33,222 nucleotides of DNA from Circinella minor (taxonomy: Eukaryota > Mucoromycota > Mucoromycetes > Mucorales > Lichtheimiaceae). Location of the stretch: positions 1 through 33,222 of the forward strand of contig JAEPRB010000347.1 in NCBI GenBank assembly GCA_016758965.1. Direction: 5' to 3'. The notes below the pieces were generated by a model. The model had not been told where the DNA came from. It saw nothing but the letters and a program-made list of their open reading frames with translations, and did not search any database. Every line of letters starts with the position of its first letter. Position 1 is the first letter of the stretch. This document shows, in pieces, positions 1-30,508 of this stretch. A program made the translations under genes and the position numbers.

Positions 1-2700
1 ATTACCCTTATCAAATATATCATCCACTTTCAAAACCATCTTATGTACGCCAAAAAAATAAAATAAAGGCCAGTCTAACCATGGTCGTCTTGTGTCACCT
101 TAATTGCTCCATCTATAAAAATATAAACATTAAACTGCCACCCGAACGACTTCTAATTATATGCTACTTATTCAAATAGGTTCTCGCTTTTTTTTTTATT
201 AAACATAGTCCTGTATGTAATAGTCGTATGATTAATTCGAAGTTCAAGCACAAGAGTATATAGCTTGTATGTTATTACTCTTGTTGCCCGATAAAAAAAA
301 TGTGATACCGAGTTTCCGTAAACCTGTTTTTTCTGTTTGTGTAGAGTAATTTGTGATTAAAATGTAAACAAAGAAACAAGTAATTAACAGTTTTTTTTCA
401 CACTGATGGCAGACACTATACCATGGCTCTGGTCCAGAAGAATAGATAGTGGTGGTCAGTTTTGCATATCACCTTGGGGTTATGGCGTCTTTGTTTATTC
501 TCGATACTGAGTAATGGTACATAATATGATTGGACATTTTCTTTTATTTAGTATACAAACTAGTAAGTCACCTTCCCATTATCAACAAATAAAATAAATA
601 TATTGGGTACTATTACTCAACTAGTCTAAACCGGTTTATAAATGTGAAATGTGTGAAAATATTCTTTCATCCCTCGGAGCCACAGACGATAGGATAATCT
701 ACTTTTATCACTAATAATAGGAGTTCCCAGTATAACCAAGTTCTATTTTTTATTTTTATTTTCATATTGGAGATAAATTAATGTATTTTACATTATTCAG
801 TTTAACTTTAAGAAAAGATGTATTCTTGTATAGTACATGAATTTCTCAGTACCATGTTGTAAATTGCTCATGTAAACGGCCTTTTCTATATTTGGAATGT
901 TTTTCATGTGCTTACAATGTATATATAAAAGCAGTTTGCGTTAATAGAGAGAATGATAAGTAGCAGGTGCTTGGCTGCAAGAAAAAAAAACATTGCTGTA
1001 AATGATCATGTGAAGTTTCGGACAAAACAAAAAAGGTCAGCACGAAAAAAAATATAATATGGCTAGGTTCCCATTATACCTTTCTCATCCCAAAGTTTCT
1101 TTGCTTCCTTACGAATATACAATCCGTAACCAAAATGTTCTATCGGTAGACTTATATGACTGTTATATAATGGTGCTAACACACAACGCTCATATTTTCT
1201 TCTTGGCTAAAGCTTAATTCTTATTCGACCATATTACTCGATCTATCTATTATTCGTTGGACATTACTTGTCACAACTGGGGTATGTTTTGTGTTTATTT
1301 TTCAAAGTGCACATTTGTTTAAGAAACATATTTAACAGGTACTTGAGCAGTAAATAAACATTTCTATTTTATTGACGTTTACATATAGGTACTATAGGTC
1401 GTTTTTTTCTCTGCTGCTTTGGGTATTTGCGCCATTTTATGCGTGTTTTTTCTGCTCTGTTACTTCAACTACGCAACCATGGAAGGTACTATATACTGTG
1501 TATGATACTTCCCCGTTGTCTAATGAATTATTATCGTATATTGCATTTAATTCTTATCATACGTATTACCCTTTCTGAGGGTTTTATTTTTCATAATCAT
1601 CTCTTGCTTACTATATACTGTGGGATGATAATAACTGCAATCGCTTAATAAAACATTTATTCTTTTTTTTTGGCATTGTGAAAATCTTACCTACCATCAA
1701 TAATAAATAATAAGATACACGATCTAACTCAACATAATAATATCTATTACGTACTTCTCCATTATATAATATTAAACAAACTATACCAACGGAAACATAT
1801 AATATATAATAATAACATACCAATAATAATAAGAATAATAAGAATAATAAACAAGATATCATGTACATATCAAACATATTAAAACTAAAACAACAAGTGA
1901 ACCCATCATCGTATGATAGAGAAATTATATACCAAAGAATATAAATATAGATTTAAAATTAAATAATATAGAATTATATTTTTATCTTGATACCTAATAT
2001 AATAAAAAGACCTAACTGATTTTTACAAAACTATTTTCTGTTATCTATTTTATTTTCTTATACGTATTTTTTTCACTTATATTTCCCATCCACACGACAG
2101 TAACTTAAAAATAAATAGTACCTGTAATTGTAGAAACAGGGATACCATTATTTATACACGTGATCTTTCAGTGATTTTCATATCTTATAGAGTCCTTGCC
2201 TTTTATTGGAATCACTCAACTACGTAAAAACACTTTTCCCGCATCACATTAGCTTGACAAATATGGCAATTTTCAGATCAACTTTTTTCTCGGACATATC
2301 GTACCCACCTACAATTCTACCGATTAATCCTTTAGAATATATATTTCTTTACCCTTAGTACTTTACTTTTGCGTTAAAAACTTTATAATACATCTTTGAT
2401 TTTCAACATTAAAAAATCGTATTTAGCTTAGTAACTTTTGTTACGTAAAAAATATATTTTTTAGAAATTTCATCGACCACTCATTATTCGTTAAATTTTT
2501 CTCAAAATTGTATCGTTCGTAATGTTTTTCTTTATTCAATCTACTCTAGAACTATCAACTTACTACCTCATTTTCTGAGAAAATTTTACCAAAAAAAAAC
2601 TAAGTCAGAGAGTTTTCGCCTTTTTTAGAATCTACCGAGAATATTCTCTCTGTCTATATTAAGTAATACCCTATCTCTTCTCCCTTATAACTTTTTTTTA
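1..2700. other. AT-rich intergenic sequence, no gene seen
   Basis: Very AT-rich sequence with many short A and T runs. The few open frames are short, rich in Tyr/Leu/Ile/Phe codons and overlap each other on both strands, as expected by chance at this composition. I see no splice-bounded coding chain, no RNA gene and no recognisable repeat. TACGTA hexamers occur near 1747, 2061, 2221 and 2443; see the finding on CGTA insertions. Confidence 0.6.
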
Positions 2701-3746
2701 CAACTGTATACTCCGATGGCTGGTTTACCTGTACGGATGGATAATATGGTCAGCCTTATTTCACCCAAGCTGGATTTGATGAAAAAGAAATTATATGACC
2801 AATGTCAAGCTTCCATTATATATATATATACATATAATTAAATTCTGAGACAAGTACTTAACATTATTACTACCGTCACTTATCGCTATTAAACCAAATA
2901 ATCTTTATTACGTATTGATGTCTAGTAAGTAGAAGACAGTGTATTGTGATTATTGTTACACAGTACGTACGTATGTTATATAAAATGTCGCAAAAGCGAT
3001 CCATGTATAAATTGACAAAAGTACTATATACTTCTATGGCAATAAATAAACTGTTAAAAAGGAGTAAAAAAAATTAAGTAGAGAAAAAGAATGAATTGTG
3101 ATTTCTCTCTTTTCATCGATTTTTAACTCACACCGTTCCCGCAGTGAAAATACAGTAACTACTATTTAATCTTTTTCAGGCTACATGATTCTACACGCAA
3201 ACTTCTTATTAACTTCCGTCAGGAAGAGGCTCTCTTTGACAACAAACCTCCTTAACCCCTCCCTCACCCCTCATATATAATTACACACACACACACACAT
3301 ACGTATATATAAAAGCCCACTTTATAGTTTAGTTCATCTTCTCGATTATATCCTACGTACTTCCTTTATCTTTCTTTTTCTTCCTTTTTTTCCTTTGCTT
3401 GTATTATATTATCATATATTGTTTTGTCTTGTTTATGTCTATCCAGCCACTGTTGTGGGTCTCCTAATTTTAGTGACCGCTAATAAATTCATTTTCTTAA
3501 ATGTTAAAAGAAAGAAAGTTCAGGCTACCTAAGCATCTATATTTCCGTGTATATACTGTCTATATACTCAACATATCAAATGGAAAAGTTACGAAAATAC
3601 TTTTTTGGCTGCATACTAACGAATAAGTTTATTTGTTACTGTCAATAAAGATATTATTTTTAAAACAAAAACGTATAGTACATGATTGATCAATAAAGTA
3701 TAATATCATTTTCCAAATTGCTATTTAGTTTTACAATTTTTCTTGA
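2701..3746. other. Intergenic; weak exon-like islands and a promoter-like block
   Basis: No gene can be supported. Three stretches look more coding-like than the surroundings: an ATG at 2716 followed by about 34 codons, an ATG at 2984 (30 codons), and about 25 codons after a possible TTTTTCAG acceptor at 3174-3255 ending in TAA. They share no frame or obvious introns. At 3304-3313 a TATATAAAAG box is followed by a long pyrimidine-rich stretch (3360-3400) and an ATG at 3435 that closes after 10 codons, so it resembles a fungal promoter without a gene. An (AC)n run lies at 3282-3298. TACGTA occurs at about 2909, 2964 (overlapping pair), 3300 and 3353. Confidence 0.35.
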
Positions 3747-6700
3747 TCAAGTCATTCTATTTGCCTTTTGTTTCAATTCTTTAATTCGCCGACGTTCAGT
3801 TTCTTTTTCTACATCATCCCAAATTGTTATTGGGTTTGGAGGAGCGAGCAATTCTCTTCTATTCTCAGACCAATGAATACGGTCGATATCGTGATTTACT
3901 TAAAATCGTTAATATTGACCATTCCTATCTGGTTTGTGTGAATAATCTGAAACGATATGCACAGTACGTTCAATGTCACTTACTTGAATAACTTTACCAG
4001 TCTTTTGTAATTCCAATACCTCCATGCTAGTAATATGTTTGATGCGAGATACTTCTGAATTACTTTGGGCTTTGGTTTGATTAACAGGTGGATATCGATT
4101 TATAAGACAAAGGTCGAGTTGCTGATCCTTATATTTGCAAGTAGAAAACAGCACTACCTGACCATAATACCGTCACCGCTCGATATAACGATACACCCCG
4201 TCAGACCAAAAGTGTATCGTTATATCGAATTATCGTTATATCGAATTCTTGATCTGAGTTATAATAATTGGATAAATATCATCCATATGTACTTGGCCTT
4301 ATTTGTATCTATATGTCTTGTAAAAGACTAAACTCTAGAAATTTATGTTGTCCATACTAAAAATAAGCTATAAAAATAAAACAGTTCTTTTTTTTTGTAC
4401 AGTTTTCTTTGTCAAATATCCCCCGTCTTATTACTTCTAATTGAATTACAACCACATAATCACATATAATTAATGCTGATCCCCTATAAAAAAAATGCGA
4501 GTATCATATTATGATAAGCATCAAAAACCGTCTACATATTATTGTTTACAAATGCATGCCAATTGACAAAGAAAAAGTTAGACAAGCATAATTGGGGAAA
4601 AAACAAATCTAATTTTTATAAGAAAAAAGCATAAGCAAAATATCACTGATTTTTTTTAGTAAGACAATCCCTGAAGATAAAAATGATGTTCAGATTATTA
4701 AACACTTAATAAAAAGCTTAAAAACTAAAGTTAGAAGGTCAAAAAATGCCCAACAAACTAGTATTATTTCCTTTTTTAAAAAATAAAGATGTTATTTGTC
4801 CGCTCGATATAACGATATTTTTGCCAAAACCCTATCGGATATCGTTATATAAAATTAACGATATTTCCCTGCTTAATCTGTCTTGGACCCCAAAACCCTA
4901 TCGTTATATCGAAATATCGTTATATCGAATATCGTTACAGCGAGCGGTGACGGTATTCACCTTTGATAGCGACAAAATCTATCCATGCTTCATTACGGTA
5001 AACTGAATCAGCTCTAACAATTTCAGTATACGTATTCTTCATTATCATCATCAGATTTCATAAAAACCTTTAAACACTTGTAGGCCTTGATCTTGAAATA
5101 AAAAATATTGGGATCAATTAATTTTCTGATACTAATAAAAATGTGTATAAGTACAGATCACGCATCCTTGACTTGCTTACAATTGAACTTCTTTTCTCAA
5201 TACGTATCAGTACGTATCCAAGAATATGCGTATCAGTCGGCTTATAGATGAGTAGGCAGAATCTTCATGCTGTAACGCCTTCGGATCAACACTTTACTAA
5301 CGATGAAAGTTCATATGGACGCTTTATAGTGGAAATGCTAGTCGATGAATGATATTGTACAATATCATCTTTGCTTTTCTCATTGGGTATGTCATATAGC
5401 ACATCACGACGCATGATAAACGTGGCCATTTATTATAATCAGTAATTGTGTCGGACTTCATGATTGAACGAGATGCTCACATACAATAAAACACATTAAA
5501 TAAATCTTTACCTGTTCAGTATATGCACCGCTTTGAAAATTTGAGCATCTTGTCGGTAGTTTTGAATCTGTCTTATGCGGTGTCTCACTTTGACATGTTC
5601 TATATCCATCAACAACACCACGGCCTTCGATATCAATAGCATTCGCTATAATGCATGATTTTTGGCACAAAAATATTAATATTATTACGTCGTGTATCAT
5701 CTGGTATATCTAGTTACAATGATAGGAATCGTTTATCTTAGCTCCATATGATCTTTTAATTCATCATACGTTGGCTTTGTTAAATTTGAAATTAAGAACC
5801 CATTTTTAATTCGTCGTTGATTCCGAATCCAAGGAATTACCTTCGCTCTATAGTATATAATATTAGAACAGAAAACCATCTTGCAGCAAATAATTTATAT
5901 TCAATAAGTATATTTGGTTAGGACTGAAGAGTGTTTACTGTTTTATATCCGAGAAGGGTTTTATGCGTCAATGAGGAGCAAATTTATGTTATGCGCATAG
6001 TAAAATGTTTTTGTTGGCCTTATAAAAAATTGTACATCCTCGCATTGAAGCCATCTAATTTGAAGAACGACCGTCCAAATTTATAAAAATTAAATATACT
6101 AACTTGCAAAAATAGTATCACCTGTTGGTGATCTCAATAATATCTTGTGTAGATAACAATGCTTCAACACACTGGACGATCTGGATGTATACACCTCCTA
6201 ATTGATGAAGTTCATCTGAAACCATACTGCTGTAAATGTCAAAGTGTGGTACAGTCCAAAAAACATTCTATAATCAGATATCTATACCTCTATAGCGAAA
6301 GATTAATTTATTGTTCTTTCCTGTTTTTATTTGACTGACATCTCATTCTTACCTCGCAAAGATGTATAGAAAATTTTAGAAAATTCAGCTGCCTTTTTTT
6401 TTTATTTCTAGATGTCACTAATCCTTGCCCTCGTGTACACAGTAGTTTCGTGATTTCAGATTTTCTTGAGTTTGTATCATTACTGGGAGGTAAATGAAAG
6501 TTTGATGTGAATGACCAACATCGTGGACATAAATATAGCACACCACCGGATTTAACAAGTGTCATAAGAACCTTATAAGTATTCATGGGATGATACGTAT
6601 TAATAAAGGGCTTTAAAATGATAGCGCTTTTGTTTATAATTTACTTATTGCTTGGGAAGGTCGGCAATGTATACTGCGAGAGTTGGGACACATTGGTACT

Positions 6701-21848: not shown

Positions 21849-23696
21849 ATGAAAAAACAATCGACGAATGGAAAAAAACCCGTTACTCGTAAAAAACCTG
21901 GTTTAACCGATAAACAAAAGTTAATCAAGAGCAGTGCCGAACAAAGGTTGCAAGCACAGCAATTAGCTTTTAGTTGGCAAGAAAAATTATTTTCGAAACG
22001 TCAAGTACCAGTTTCTTTATTAAGACAAGCTGCCACTATATTACAACCACAAACATATGACGAAGTAGTTGAAGAACGTGCTGTACAAGATTATTGTGGC
22101 TACCCATTATGTAATAATGCACCTGTCAAAGATCAACCTCGGTATCGCATTTCTTTATCTCAACGAAAAGTATTTGATCAAACCGAATTAGCTTCTTACT
22201 GTTCTGATAATTGTTTACAAAAATCTAAATATTTTCGAATGCAATTATCTGAAGAACCTGTTTGGTTTCGTGATTTACAAACACAACCTTTGGTTAAAAT
22301 TGTATTACCGAGTCAAGATTTAAAGTAATTTTTTTTTTTTTTCATATATCAAATAATTGGATTTTGGGCCCTTTTTTTTTAATGCATTTTAATAACTAAA
22401 AAAAAAAAAAAAATACTATTTGGAAATGGATTAATATAGAAAAATATTAGAAGAAGAAAAACAAGAGAGTCAAAAAGCCAAATCAACTCATCAAATACGA
22501 CAAGATTATGTACAAAAGTTATTGGAAAATATTTCTATTTTACCAACCACTATTAATACCATCAACAAAGCATCATCATCATCATCATTAGCAGCAACAG
22601 CAACTCCAGTAACTGTAGAATCATTTGAAACAGATACTGGTAACGAAATTCGAATTTTTGAAAACAACACAACATTAGAAAATACCACTCTTACCAATAT
22701 CCCAAAAGAAGGTATTCATGATGCTATTGAAGGATTTCGAATTGAAATGCAACGACGACGGAGGAAAAGTAATGATGGTCCAAGCACACTTATATTACAA
22801 ACGGATACGACATATAATGATAATGATGATAAACCACCTGCATCACCAACGACTGTGGGTTCAGAATCAGTCATATTTGAAGATGAAGAAACTATGTTGG
22901 AAAATGCAATGGAAACAATGATGATGTTAAAAGAAATGAAAGCCGATCAACCAGATCAAATAGCAACACCGCCACAACCATCCGCAGCAGAACGGCAACC
23001 ACGACAACAATCTTCATCGACATCTACTACTATTGCTAGTAATACAACAACACCAACACAACCTAAAGCAGTCAATATCGTAATACCTGATATACCGAAA
23101 CCATCATCCAAAAAAAAGAAACGTCAAGTACCTGAAATGTCACTCTTTGGAAAAATTTGGACAATGACAGATCGATTGACAACAAAGGCTACAAGAAAAT
23201 ATTTTGAAGAACTGAAATTACAAACCAAAGTAGATATGGCTAAATTATTACGTGATGAAACGAATCGTGATGAAACAACATTAATGCGTAGTCAAATTTT
23301 CAGTGAAAAGATATTAGAAACGTAAGGATGAAATATAATTAACGAGAGATCGTGTGGGGATGTATGTAAAAAGTAAACTATTAAATTTAACATGATTTAT
23401 TATTTATTGTTCATTCTAGATATGCGGTCATTCGTGCACAATTGGGATTATCAGATACACTGGAGACGGATTTAATCAATTTAATCCAAACATTTCAATT
23501 TACGGATGCTTCTATCGTTGTATTAAATCCTTCAGAAACATACATGATGACATTAGTATTATTTAAAGCACTTGCAGATGTGACTATTTCAAATAATACA
23601 TGGCAACAAAATTTCGAAGCATGTTGTAAAGCAGTCGGTGAAACAGGTGATACCATTGGTGCATGTGTTCGTGTTTTACGTGTTGCAAGTACTTGA
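21849..23696 (+). CDS. RTR1: Rtr1/RPAP2-type RNA polymerase II CTD phosphatase
   Basis: Three exons: 21849-22324, 22440-23321 and 23420-23696, giving 544 residues. Both introns split a codon after its second base (donors GTAATT, GTAAGG; acceptors ATAG, CTAG). Residues 30-142 form the Rtr1/RPAP2 zinc domain: C83-x4-C88 in CGYPLC and C118-x3-C122 in YCSDNC, followed by the family hallmark QLSEEPVWFRD. The family removes phosphate from Ser5 of the polymerase II C-terminal repeat and aids nuclear import of the polymerase. Residues about 185-380 are low-complexity Ser/Thr/Gln/Pro. A basic SKKKKR run follows near 392-397, then SLFGKIWTMTDRLTTKATRK and a predicted helical C-terminus. It is longer than budding-yeast Rtr1 (about 230 aa) and nearer to animal RPAP2. 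Exon 2 opens in a Lys/Glu-rich helix right after the zinc domain. Confidence 0.9.
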
Positions 23697-23916: not shown

Positions 23917-25650
23917 TTAGCGATGATAATCCTCTAAAAATGATATTGATGTGGATGGCTGTAAATTATTGTTGAAATTAGATGAAGATGTAGAAGAATA
24001 ACGAAGATGGTGACATACTACTTCTGGTTTGATGGTTATTTCACAATCATGAGTATAATCTTGTTTGCATACGTAATGGACAATTACGAGATCTATTACG
24101 TACTTGACCATGGATCTATTATATATGTGATAATACTAGATCACATTGTACGTATAATATACATGTGGATTATATGTTTGCATTCTCTCTTACCAACGCA
24201 TGAAACACAAAACCCATGTTCACATTTAGACCGACGTACGTAATAACTTCATATTCATATTTTCATCCGTTGTTGTTGTTGTTGTCGGCGCCATTCCTGT
24301 ATACGTAATTATTATCCTTTTTCTTACATACTACACGAAAATCATCGAAGCATAGAGCACATGTACTATTTCGTATAATCAATAAGGATCATAATAAATC
24401 TTTGGAAACATATCCAATTGTTTCCAACCAATACCAACTTGTTGTATTTCATTATTCTGACTTCTCATAACAGCCAAAAAAGTACTCGTGACAGGATTTA
24501 TGGGAGATTGTGTTTGTCATGGAAGAGTTATTATCACCAAAATGTTGCTGTTGTTGAAGATGATTATTCAACATTATTCTACGTGCGAAATCGATGACAC
24601 GCATAAATAATTAAAATAATAACCAGTATTACGTACAGCGATACTATTAACAATCAGCTGGCCTACAAGAATGAATCGATACGTACTACTTTTATGTTTT
24701 TGTGCTAATAATATTGATTATCTTCTTTGTTGCTCTTTGTATTGTTTGAAAAAATGGATAGTTTTTCATAAAAAAAAAAAAAACGGATACTTTCGATAGC
24801 GTTACTATGTCATTATTGTCACTAGCATAAAATAAAGTTGGTAATAATAATTGTCCAATATTTTAATTTACAAATAAGATAGGTGGCATAAGTGGCTGTT
24901 GTTGTTGTTGTTGTTGTTGATTTAAAGAGATATCATTCTCGGGCTAATGTTTGATATCGATCATTGTTTCTTCTAAAGAATATTTAATATTGTCGTGTGT
25001 AATAATGCCAGCCAAAGTCATATTATAAAATTTTAATTATTTTTTTAACATGTAAGATTTTAGTTGACCATGTACAATGACCGCTTCGAGAAACATGAGC
25101 AATTCGTTATAATACTCCATTCTCCTTGTAACCTTCTTTAAGGAATTCTTGTTCTAACAAACTTTTTTTTTTGGTATAGTTCCAGAACATGAAGTATAAA
25201 GATATATTACGTAATTAAATTACCCTATTAAAATATTACAGGGTTTTTTTTTCTTTGATTAATTTTATAAATATAAAAAATAAAATACGTACGTAAACCA
25301 TAAGAAACAAGCTATACATATAATTTTAATGTATAGTAACATGAAGTAATAATATCCTATTTACATTCCAGTTACGTACTATAGAATGGTAATTGATTTT
25401 GTCCATTCATTATATGGCATGCGTTTATCTTCAACATACCATTCTTTTGACTGATACCATAAACTGCAAAAGTACTAATCGAGGTAATTTGTCGTCATTA
25501 CGTATTATTATTATTTGTTCTTACTGTATTATTACTAATGTCATTAAAAAATGGCTCCTCGTGGTCTTCTTCTGCCACATAAACGGTTCCTATTGTTATT
25601 ATTGATTGGTCACCACCATTATGTCGAGTAGATAGAAATAATAACTGCAT
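23917..25650 (-). pseudogene. Broken membrane-RING ubiquitin ligase gene riddled with CGTA insertions
   Basis: The minus-strand chain begins at the ATG 25650-25648 (MQLLFLSTRHNGGDQSIITI) and ends at TAA 23917-23919. The 3' part encodes a RING finger: C-x2-C in NSTCALCFDDF near 24340-24362; KLLR and C-x-H-x2-C-x2-C in KCEHGFCVSCV near 24194-24240; a normal intron 24193-24116; then DPW and CPLCKQD near 24062-24115. This reads through only if CGTA is skipped at 24302, 24237, 24097 and 24070. Upstream, skipping CGTA at 24630 turns IAVRNTG into a hydrophobic span, IAVILVIILIIYACHRFR, suitable as a membrane helix. Membrane helix followed by a CVDPW-type RING fits the PA-TM-RING family of ubiquitin ligases; the N-terminal domain is not recognisable. 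As written, the gene is frameshifted many times, and at least two breaks (near 24500 and 24385) are not explained by CGTA. Confidence 0.6.
24116..24193 (-). other. Intron inside the RING finger
   Basis: On the minus strand the donor GTAAGA follows TGC GTT G, and the acceptor AATAG precedes AT CCA TGG. The junction creates GAT (Asp) in the conserved CVDPW. It is 78 nt long, including one TACGTA at 24149-24154. A functional splice frame here shows the gene was recently under selection. Confidence 0.65.
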
Positions 25651-30040: not shown

Positions 30041-30508
30041 TTAGTTTGATAAAACCAAAGTAACAAAATCAACATAGTTGATACGACCATCTTTACCTAC
30101 TTCCACTTCCTTTAACAATTCATCCACTTCTTCATCAGATAATTTTTCACCTAAACTAGTTAAAACATAACGAAGTTCACCCACAGCAATAAATCCATCT
30201 CCTTCTTTATCAAATACTTGAAAACCTTGAATAAATTCTTGAGAAGTACCAGCAGGTTTAAAACCATCAGGACGTGTTAAAATAGTTAAAAAAGTACCAA
30301 AATCAATATCGGCTTCTTGTCTTTCAGAACCACCTGCCGACTTGACCAATTCACGTACTTCAGCTTGAGTAGGGTTTTGTCCAAGACCTCTTAATAAATC
30401 ACCTAAATTGGCAGATGACACAGTACTATTACCCTTTTTGTCATATAAAGAAAAAGCTTCTTTCCATTCATCTAATTGTTCTTGTGTAGGTTGATTCGTT
30501 GGACTCAT
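30041..30508 (-). CDS. cdc4: Myosin essential light chain, Cdc4/Mlc1 type
   Basis: An intronless frame of 155 residues with four EF-hand-like units. Loop 1 (D23-N34) ends in Asn instead of Glu, and loop 2 (about 60-71) is clearly non-binding. Loop 3 (D100-E111, DKEGDGFIAVGE) is nearly canonical, and loop 4 (about 136-147) is degenerate. Stretches such as GDLLRGLGQNPT, FQVFDK and GELRYVLTSLGEKLSDEE match fission-yeast Cdc4 and budding-yeast Mlc1 as I know them, and separate it from calmodulin, which has four intact loops. These light chains bind IQ motifs of class II and V myosins and act in contractile-ring assembly and cytokinesis. It is slightly longer than Cdc4 (141 aa) because of an N-terminal MSPTNQPTQEQ extension. 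The ATG follows an A/T-rich leader. It shares its 5' flank with CSN5. Confidence 0.94.
   Translation of the reverse strand: MSPTNQPTQEQLDEWKEAFSLYDKKGNSTVSSANLGDLLRGLGQNPTQAEVRELVKSAGGSERQEADIDFGTFLTILTRPDGFKPAGTSQEFIQGFQVFDKEGDGFIAVGELRYVLTSLGEKLSDEEVDELLKEVEVGKDGRINYVDFVTLVLSN

Follow-up and report, generated by a model that had tools for sequence, protein, structure and literature searches.

The RING gene and its TACGTA hexamers

On the minus strand of the window, by which we mean the whole stretch of 33,222 nucleotides of Circinella minor DNA analysed here, a gene ends in a RING (C3HC4) domain that lies in pieces in successive reading frames. An adjacent Rtr1/RPAP2 gene (21849-22328) has an open frame matching PF04181 at 87.4 bits and a product 94% identical to the closest protein in the public set, and a calmodulin-like EF-hand open frame occupies 30041-30508 on the minus strand. 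The hexamer TACGTA recurs throughout the RING gene and in a second cluster, which lies 0.8 kb from a transposon of family A (described below).

23920..24370, minus strand: RING (C3HC4) domain in frame pieces, ending at the stop (from frames and PF00097)
24116..24193, minus strand: putative GT-AG intron of 78 bases within the RING domain (from frames)
24070..24075, no strand: TACGTA at the CPL/CKQD junction of the RING; frame step +1
24097..24102, no strand: TACGTA at the DPWS/NRSRNCPL junction; frame step +1
24149..24154, no strand: TACGTA within the intron
24237..24242, no strand: TACGTA at the KLLR/RRSKCEHG junction; frame step +1
24302..24307, no strand: TACGTA at the KKKDNN/YTGMAP junction; frame step +1
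24630..24635, no strand: TACGTA joining two hydrophobic stretches; step +1, judged by eye from translated frames
24680..24685, no strand: TACGTA (word position)
25208..25213, no strand: TACGTA (word position)
25286..25295, no strand: TACGTACGTA, two overlapping TACGTA hexamers (word position)
25373..25378, no strand: TACGTA (word position)
25499..25504, no strand: TACGTA within coding-like sequence (translated frames)
1560..3359, no strand: second TACGTA cluster, ten hexamers

The domain can be followed from one hexamer to the next. One minus-strand frame reads NSTCALCFDDFRVVCKKKDNN up to hexamer 24302, the next continues with YTGMAPTTTTTTDENMNMKL(LR) up to 24237, and the one after it carries RRSKCEHGFCVSCV to the GT-AG intron at 24193-24116, which holds hexamer 24149; after the intron come DPWS to 24097, NRSRNCPL to 24070 and finally CKQD...YHR to the stop. 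The steps at 24302, 24237, 24097 and 24070 have the same sign, +1, so that four skips of CGTA and the removal of one intron restore the frame, as the first-pass annotation had proposed. The pieces contain CALC, KLLR, CEHGFCVSCV, DPW, CPL and CKQD, and all eight zinc ligands are readable. The read-through protein scores 27.8 bits against PF00097 (cut-off 21), the sole pass among the 12 RING families listed, and none of these 12 models passes when an X is placed at each junction; C3HC4 spacing together with a score above the cut-off is thus found on the read-through protein only. The description of the gene as otherwise nearly intact holds for the RING part and is limited to it, because upstream the frames are poor and neither a homologue (two candidates, none at E <= 0.01) nor a paralogue was found to judge by, the product matching only its own locus in its own genome.

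The twelve hexamers that had been reported in this gene are all present at their reported starts, and the window as a whole holds 40, whereas 100 dinucleotide-preserving shuffles average 6.62 and never exceed 12. Under a Poisson model, twelve sites in 1,435 bases have a probability of 1e-9 if the genome rate applies and 1e-8 if the non-ORF rate does, values that overstate the case because the cluster was chosen for its density; the locus has the highest TACGTA density in our 233-kb sample, which comprises the window and 200 kb taken from 20 contigs. We call a TACGTA in place of TA a scar: scars are unusually dense at the RING locus, and TACGTACGTA at 25286..25295 represents two of them on the same TA. 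No TAC...GTA inverted pair (at least 11 of 14 bases) was found near the gene, at 22-31.5 kb.

A genome-wide excess and a recurrent four-base gain

The genome contains 33,262 copies of TACGTA and 18,837 of the reversed word ATGCAT. Masked non-ORF DNA of the sample holds 136 where a second-order model expects 43.4, and the runner-up among the TA-NN-TA words, TAAATA, reaches 1.27 times expectation; before masking, TATATA was also high. The count thus lies well above expectation, and the comparison that the first-pass annotation suggested between exons and intergenic DNA, made here as a split by ORFs of at least 120 codons, gives 3.17 times expectation outside and 0.70 inside, a depletion that is partly definitional because ORFs were taken as unbroken. 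From the order-2 expectation for the 233 kb (61.9, or about 12,400 when scaled to 46.6 Mb), we estimate that about 20,900 of the genomic sites are in excess. The flanks of 158 TACGTA sites resemble those of 23,172 TA sites, with no preference beyond TA itself. Clustering is a general property of the word: its variance/mean ratio over 143 windows is 2.19, whereas 12 control words give 0.78-1.16, and local hopping or accessible DNA may therefore be at work. Scars within scars are also in excess, with four copies of TACGTACGTA against 0.12 expected in masked non-ORF DNA.

The data do not support skipping of CGTA as a general rule in genes. We read the 158 sites found in the 233 kb on both strands, 316 readings in all: skipping four bases gave the longest open frame 64 times, skipping five bases 70 times and skipping none 110 times, and the other 72 were ties. 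At most TACGTA sites there is nothing to suggest a broken gene.

Repeats bring the gain itself into view. Across 55 aligned copies of three unrelated transposon families, TACGTA arises from 32 of the 54 insertions of four bases, spread over 25 alignment columns; a random four-base insertion would produce the word in 0.1-0.3% of cases. The hAT-like short element (16 of 22 copies aligned, five having been dropped for lack of a match and one for matching 47 bases only) has 47 insertion events, of which 13 are four-base and 7 make TACGTA. For family B (22 copies) the corresponding numbers are 136, 34 and 20, and for family A (17 copies, including the one at 4168-4955 of the window) 38, 7 and 5. 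Judged by eye, the majority sequence has a TA at 21 of the 27 TACGTA insertions in the hAT-like element and family B, and six are unclear. A short remnant thus stands between duplicated TA at a former TA, the form of an excision footprint. Further unrelated pairs, TTTACGTATATG against TTTATATG and similar cases, show the same gain.

The rate per substitution is similar in the three families (7/573 in the hAT-like element, 20/1900 in family B, 5/690 in family A). The gain is often private to one copy, and two scars are unique to a family A copy that differs from the majority by only 2.9%, which makes the process recent; three copies share one hAT-family site, and scar columns common to several copies may be inherited. 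The 22 four-base insertions that do not make TACGTA count against excision as the cause; among them is TATGTA, present at one column in four copies of family B and perhaps a scar that has decayed. Family B also holds a double insertion (L104), TACAG insertions in L100 and L112, which form a second remnant type, and a TACTG insertion in L106 that could be a plain duplication. An hAT footprint, with an 8-bp target duplication and altered bases, does not fit, since the gain is four bases at TA. With its recurrence at many places in three repeat families and its enrichment across the genome, a specific process that inserts CGTA at TA, the core of the original proposal, is strongly supported.

TA-inserting elements and candidate sources

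TA-inserting elements and transposases are present in this genome, with at least 146 profile matches to DDE_3 and 13 to DDE_1. One candidate source type lies in the window itself.

4168..4955, no strand: family A, 788-bp TA-flanked non-coding element with inverted repeats CCGTCACCGCTCG

A genome search for family A gave at least 44 entries, 40 of 156 candidates being scored. After the flanking TA, family A starts C(C/A/T)GTCACCGCTCG... and family B CAGAGGATCC..., and both have TA at either end. With the pogo-like elements, of which 45 ends were found, there are three TA-flanked families with defined ends, and all begin with C and have ends of the form C...G. In family A (the window copy and L117-L132) the second base is equal at both ends in 16 of 17 copies (CC in 6, AA in 6, TT in 4), the exception with mixed bases being L127; the base varies between close relatives, with several changes on the tree that affect both ends together, while the remainder of the end is stable. 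One copy, L129, is directly preceded by TACG. The TACGTACGTA excess, the double insertion in L104 and the TACG before L129 indicate that scars serve again as targets.

An element with TACG...CGTA ends was not found in loci of at least 2 kb, barring the inner repeats of the hAT-like family (L011:5804-6208, L027:1313-1756 and L033-L052). Its TACG...CGTA pairs (10/12 bases) were considered as a CG-ended source and rejected: they sit inside outer ends AGGGAATTG with 7-8 bp duplications, judged by eye, so that the hAT-like element is a scaffold and not a source. Its inner repeats TACGGACACC are spaced 22 or 44 bases, and the exact word occurs 330 times in the genome, compared with 27 for its reverse. 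The DDE_3 locus L032 has 172-bp inverted repeats and no clear TACG end. Three other DDE_3 loci, L029, L030 and L031, have transposase-like open frames of 439, 488 and 487 aa, with no recognisable inverted repeats and no TACGTA within 2.7-2.8 kb, and are possibly domesticated. At the DDE_1 loci L053-L055 a complete end pair was not recovered. The mariner-type profile PF01359 had no match in this genome, a null that says little because the control genomes gave none either. The insertion nested in family B copy L056 was set aside: its first bases are TG, its last are CA, and a 5-6 bp duplication is visible by eye, so that it resembles a solo LTR. The open frames of L019 had no match in the window.

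In small, size-limited samples, which included the flanks of 20 family A copies and of 20 out of 45 pogo ends, we found no site occupied by an element in one copy and carrying a scar in another. One of these pogo ends, L076, lies in a repeat that is also present in L014 and L022, and their counterparts of its site are neither a clear TA nor TACGTA. The pogo and family A flanks hold 15 TACGTA in 10.0 kb, mildly above the non-ORF rate. In masked non-ORF DNA, TACCGTA/TACGGTA, the by-product expected of family A, lies below expectation (5 against 11.3), and TACAGTA reaches 1.55 times expectation, a level that some other TA-NNN-TA words match. Few TA-elements were recognised in the 233 kb, against some 90 excess hexamers, and scars seem to be many times more numerous than recognisable TA-elements.

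Origin and meaning of the scars

We posit, with a probability of roughly 0.7, that TA becomes TACGTA when TA-inserting DNA transposons of the IS630/Tc1/mariner/pogo type excise and leave a footprint; the source elements would be mostly short non-autonomous copies. Insertion would duplicate the TA; at excision, the left-end C and the right-end G would remain, and end-joining would give TA-CG-TA, four bases longer than the original site and enough to shift any reading frame. The CG could arise by two routes: C...G ends may be trimmed to one base each, or a family with CG...CG ends may leave two-base overhangs, which would pair perfectly. We infer a transposon source, with excision as the cause, as probable; no pair of filled and scarred sites was found in the samples searched. 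Several such events, we propose, disrupted the RING gene.

CGTA might instead be written at TA without a resident element, by a domesticated transposase of the IS630/pogo type or by a break-repair activity that adds CG. The small samples without a filled site, the comparable frequency per substitution in the three families despite their different ages (7/573, 20/1900, 5/690) and the DDE_3 frames of 439-488 aa at L029-L031, lacking recognisable inverted repeats in 2.7-2.8 kb, all speak for such a writer; the TA duplication with an end-like remnant matches element excision instead, TACAG remnants occur too, and we consider the idea unlikely. To our knowledge, no enzyme cuts TA and adds CG without an element. 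Conceivable, though doubtful, is a clock-like process of about one CGTA insertion per hundred substitutions, with TA as its sole target rule, an unrecognised enzyme or element behind it and local hot spots such as the RING gene; it could be driven either by a highly mobile CG-ended transposon, with scars far exceeding residents, or by a domesticated host transposase without cargo. At the repeat-derived rate, four scars per approximately 370 coding bases would accompany hundreds of substitutions, and the RING ligands are nonetheless readable.

The remaining explanations fare far worse. Assembly or sequencing errors could take the form of a short uniform indel, but they would not be expected to be depleted in open frames or to occur about equally often per substitution in older and younger repeats, and we regard them as very improbable. 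That GTACGT, which stands on the coding strand at 24097 and 24630, works as a splice donor in an unbroken gene is hardly tenable: exact removal of four bases restores CPLC and the other motifs, leaving no room for an intron at these sites, and the same gain occurs in non-coding repeats. We give equally little credence to a regulatory motif, bZIP-like and kept by selection, which would account for a palindrome enriched outside coding sequence but not for flanks without preference beyond TA or for four-base gains at different places in transposon copies.

The Fot1 footprint is TAATTA, a word that is not enriched here (97 against 129 expected in masked non-ORF DNA). Fot1/pogo-like fungal elements share the TA target (PMC7325037), and pogo-type transposases and ends are present in this genome. 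Excision footprints of this kind are known from other systems: those of Tc1/mariner elements measure 2-4 bp (PMC7913693), and relics mark excision sites in yeast (PMC3660474). Stowaway MITEs and the rice Tc1/mariner element Osmar5 leave 1-4 bp of their ends beside the TA duplication and re-insert at the same TA, at an earlier footprint (PMC1925063). As here, the duplicated TA encloses a short remnant and footprints are re-targeted; they leave several remnants per site and the element is known, whereas here CG dominates genome-wide and the source is inferred. In vertebrate cells, Sleeping Beauty, with a remnant of three bases printed as TAG(T/A)CTA (PMC2874221), and the Tc1/mariner element ZB, with zero to three bases (PMC2874221, PMC7913693), likewise leave a short remnant between TA duplicates after end-joining, comparable to the TACAG in two family B copies, although the remnant here is mainly two bases. 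TACGTA is absent from the passages seen of PMC2874221, PMC2170065, PMC7325037, PMC4832277 and PMC4188875, and no report of TACGTA scars or CGTA insertion was found in the literature searched, which covered few subscription journals. The kind of footprint is thus known, and its uniformity and scale look new within that literature.

If no element makes the scars, the process would be an unknown mutator. If excision is the cause, the rule of cleavage and joining, by which C and G are left behind, would be directly testable, and the count of one hexamer would be a genome-wide readout of past excisions, which are usually seen site by site. The scars would then record transposon mobility after the elements have gone and would show how a cut-and-paste element can break genes by frameshift without staying.
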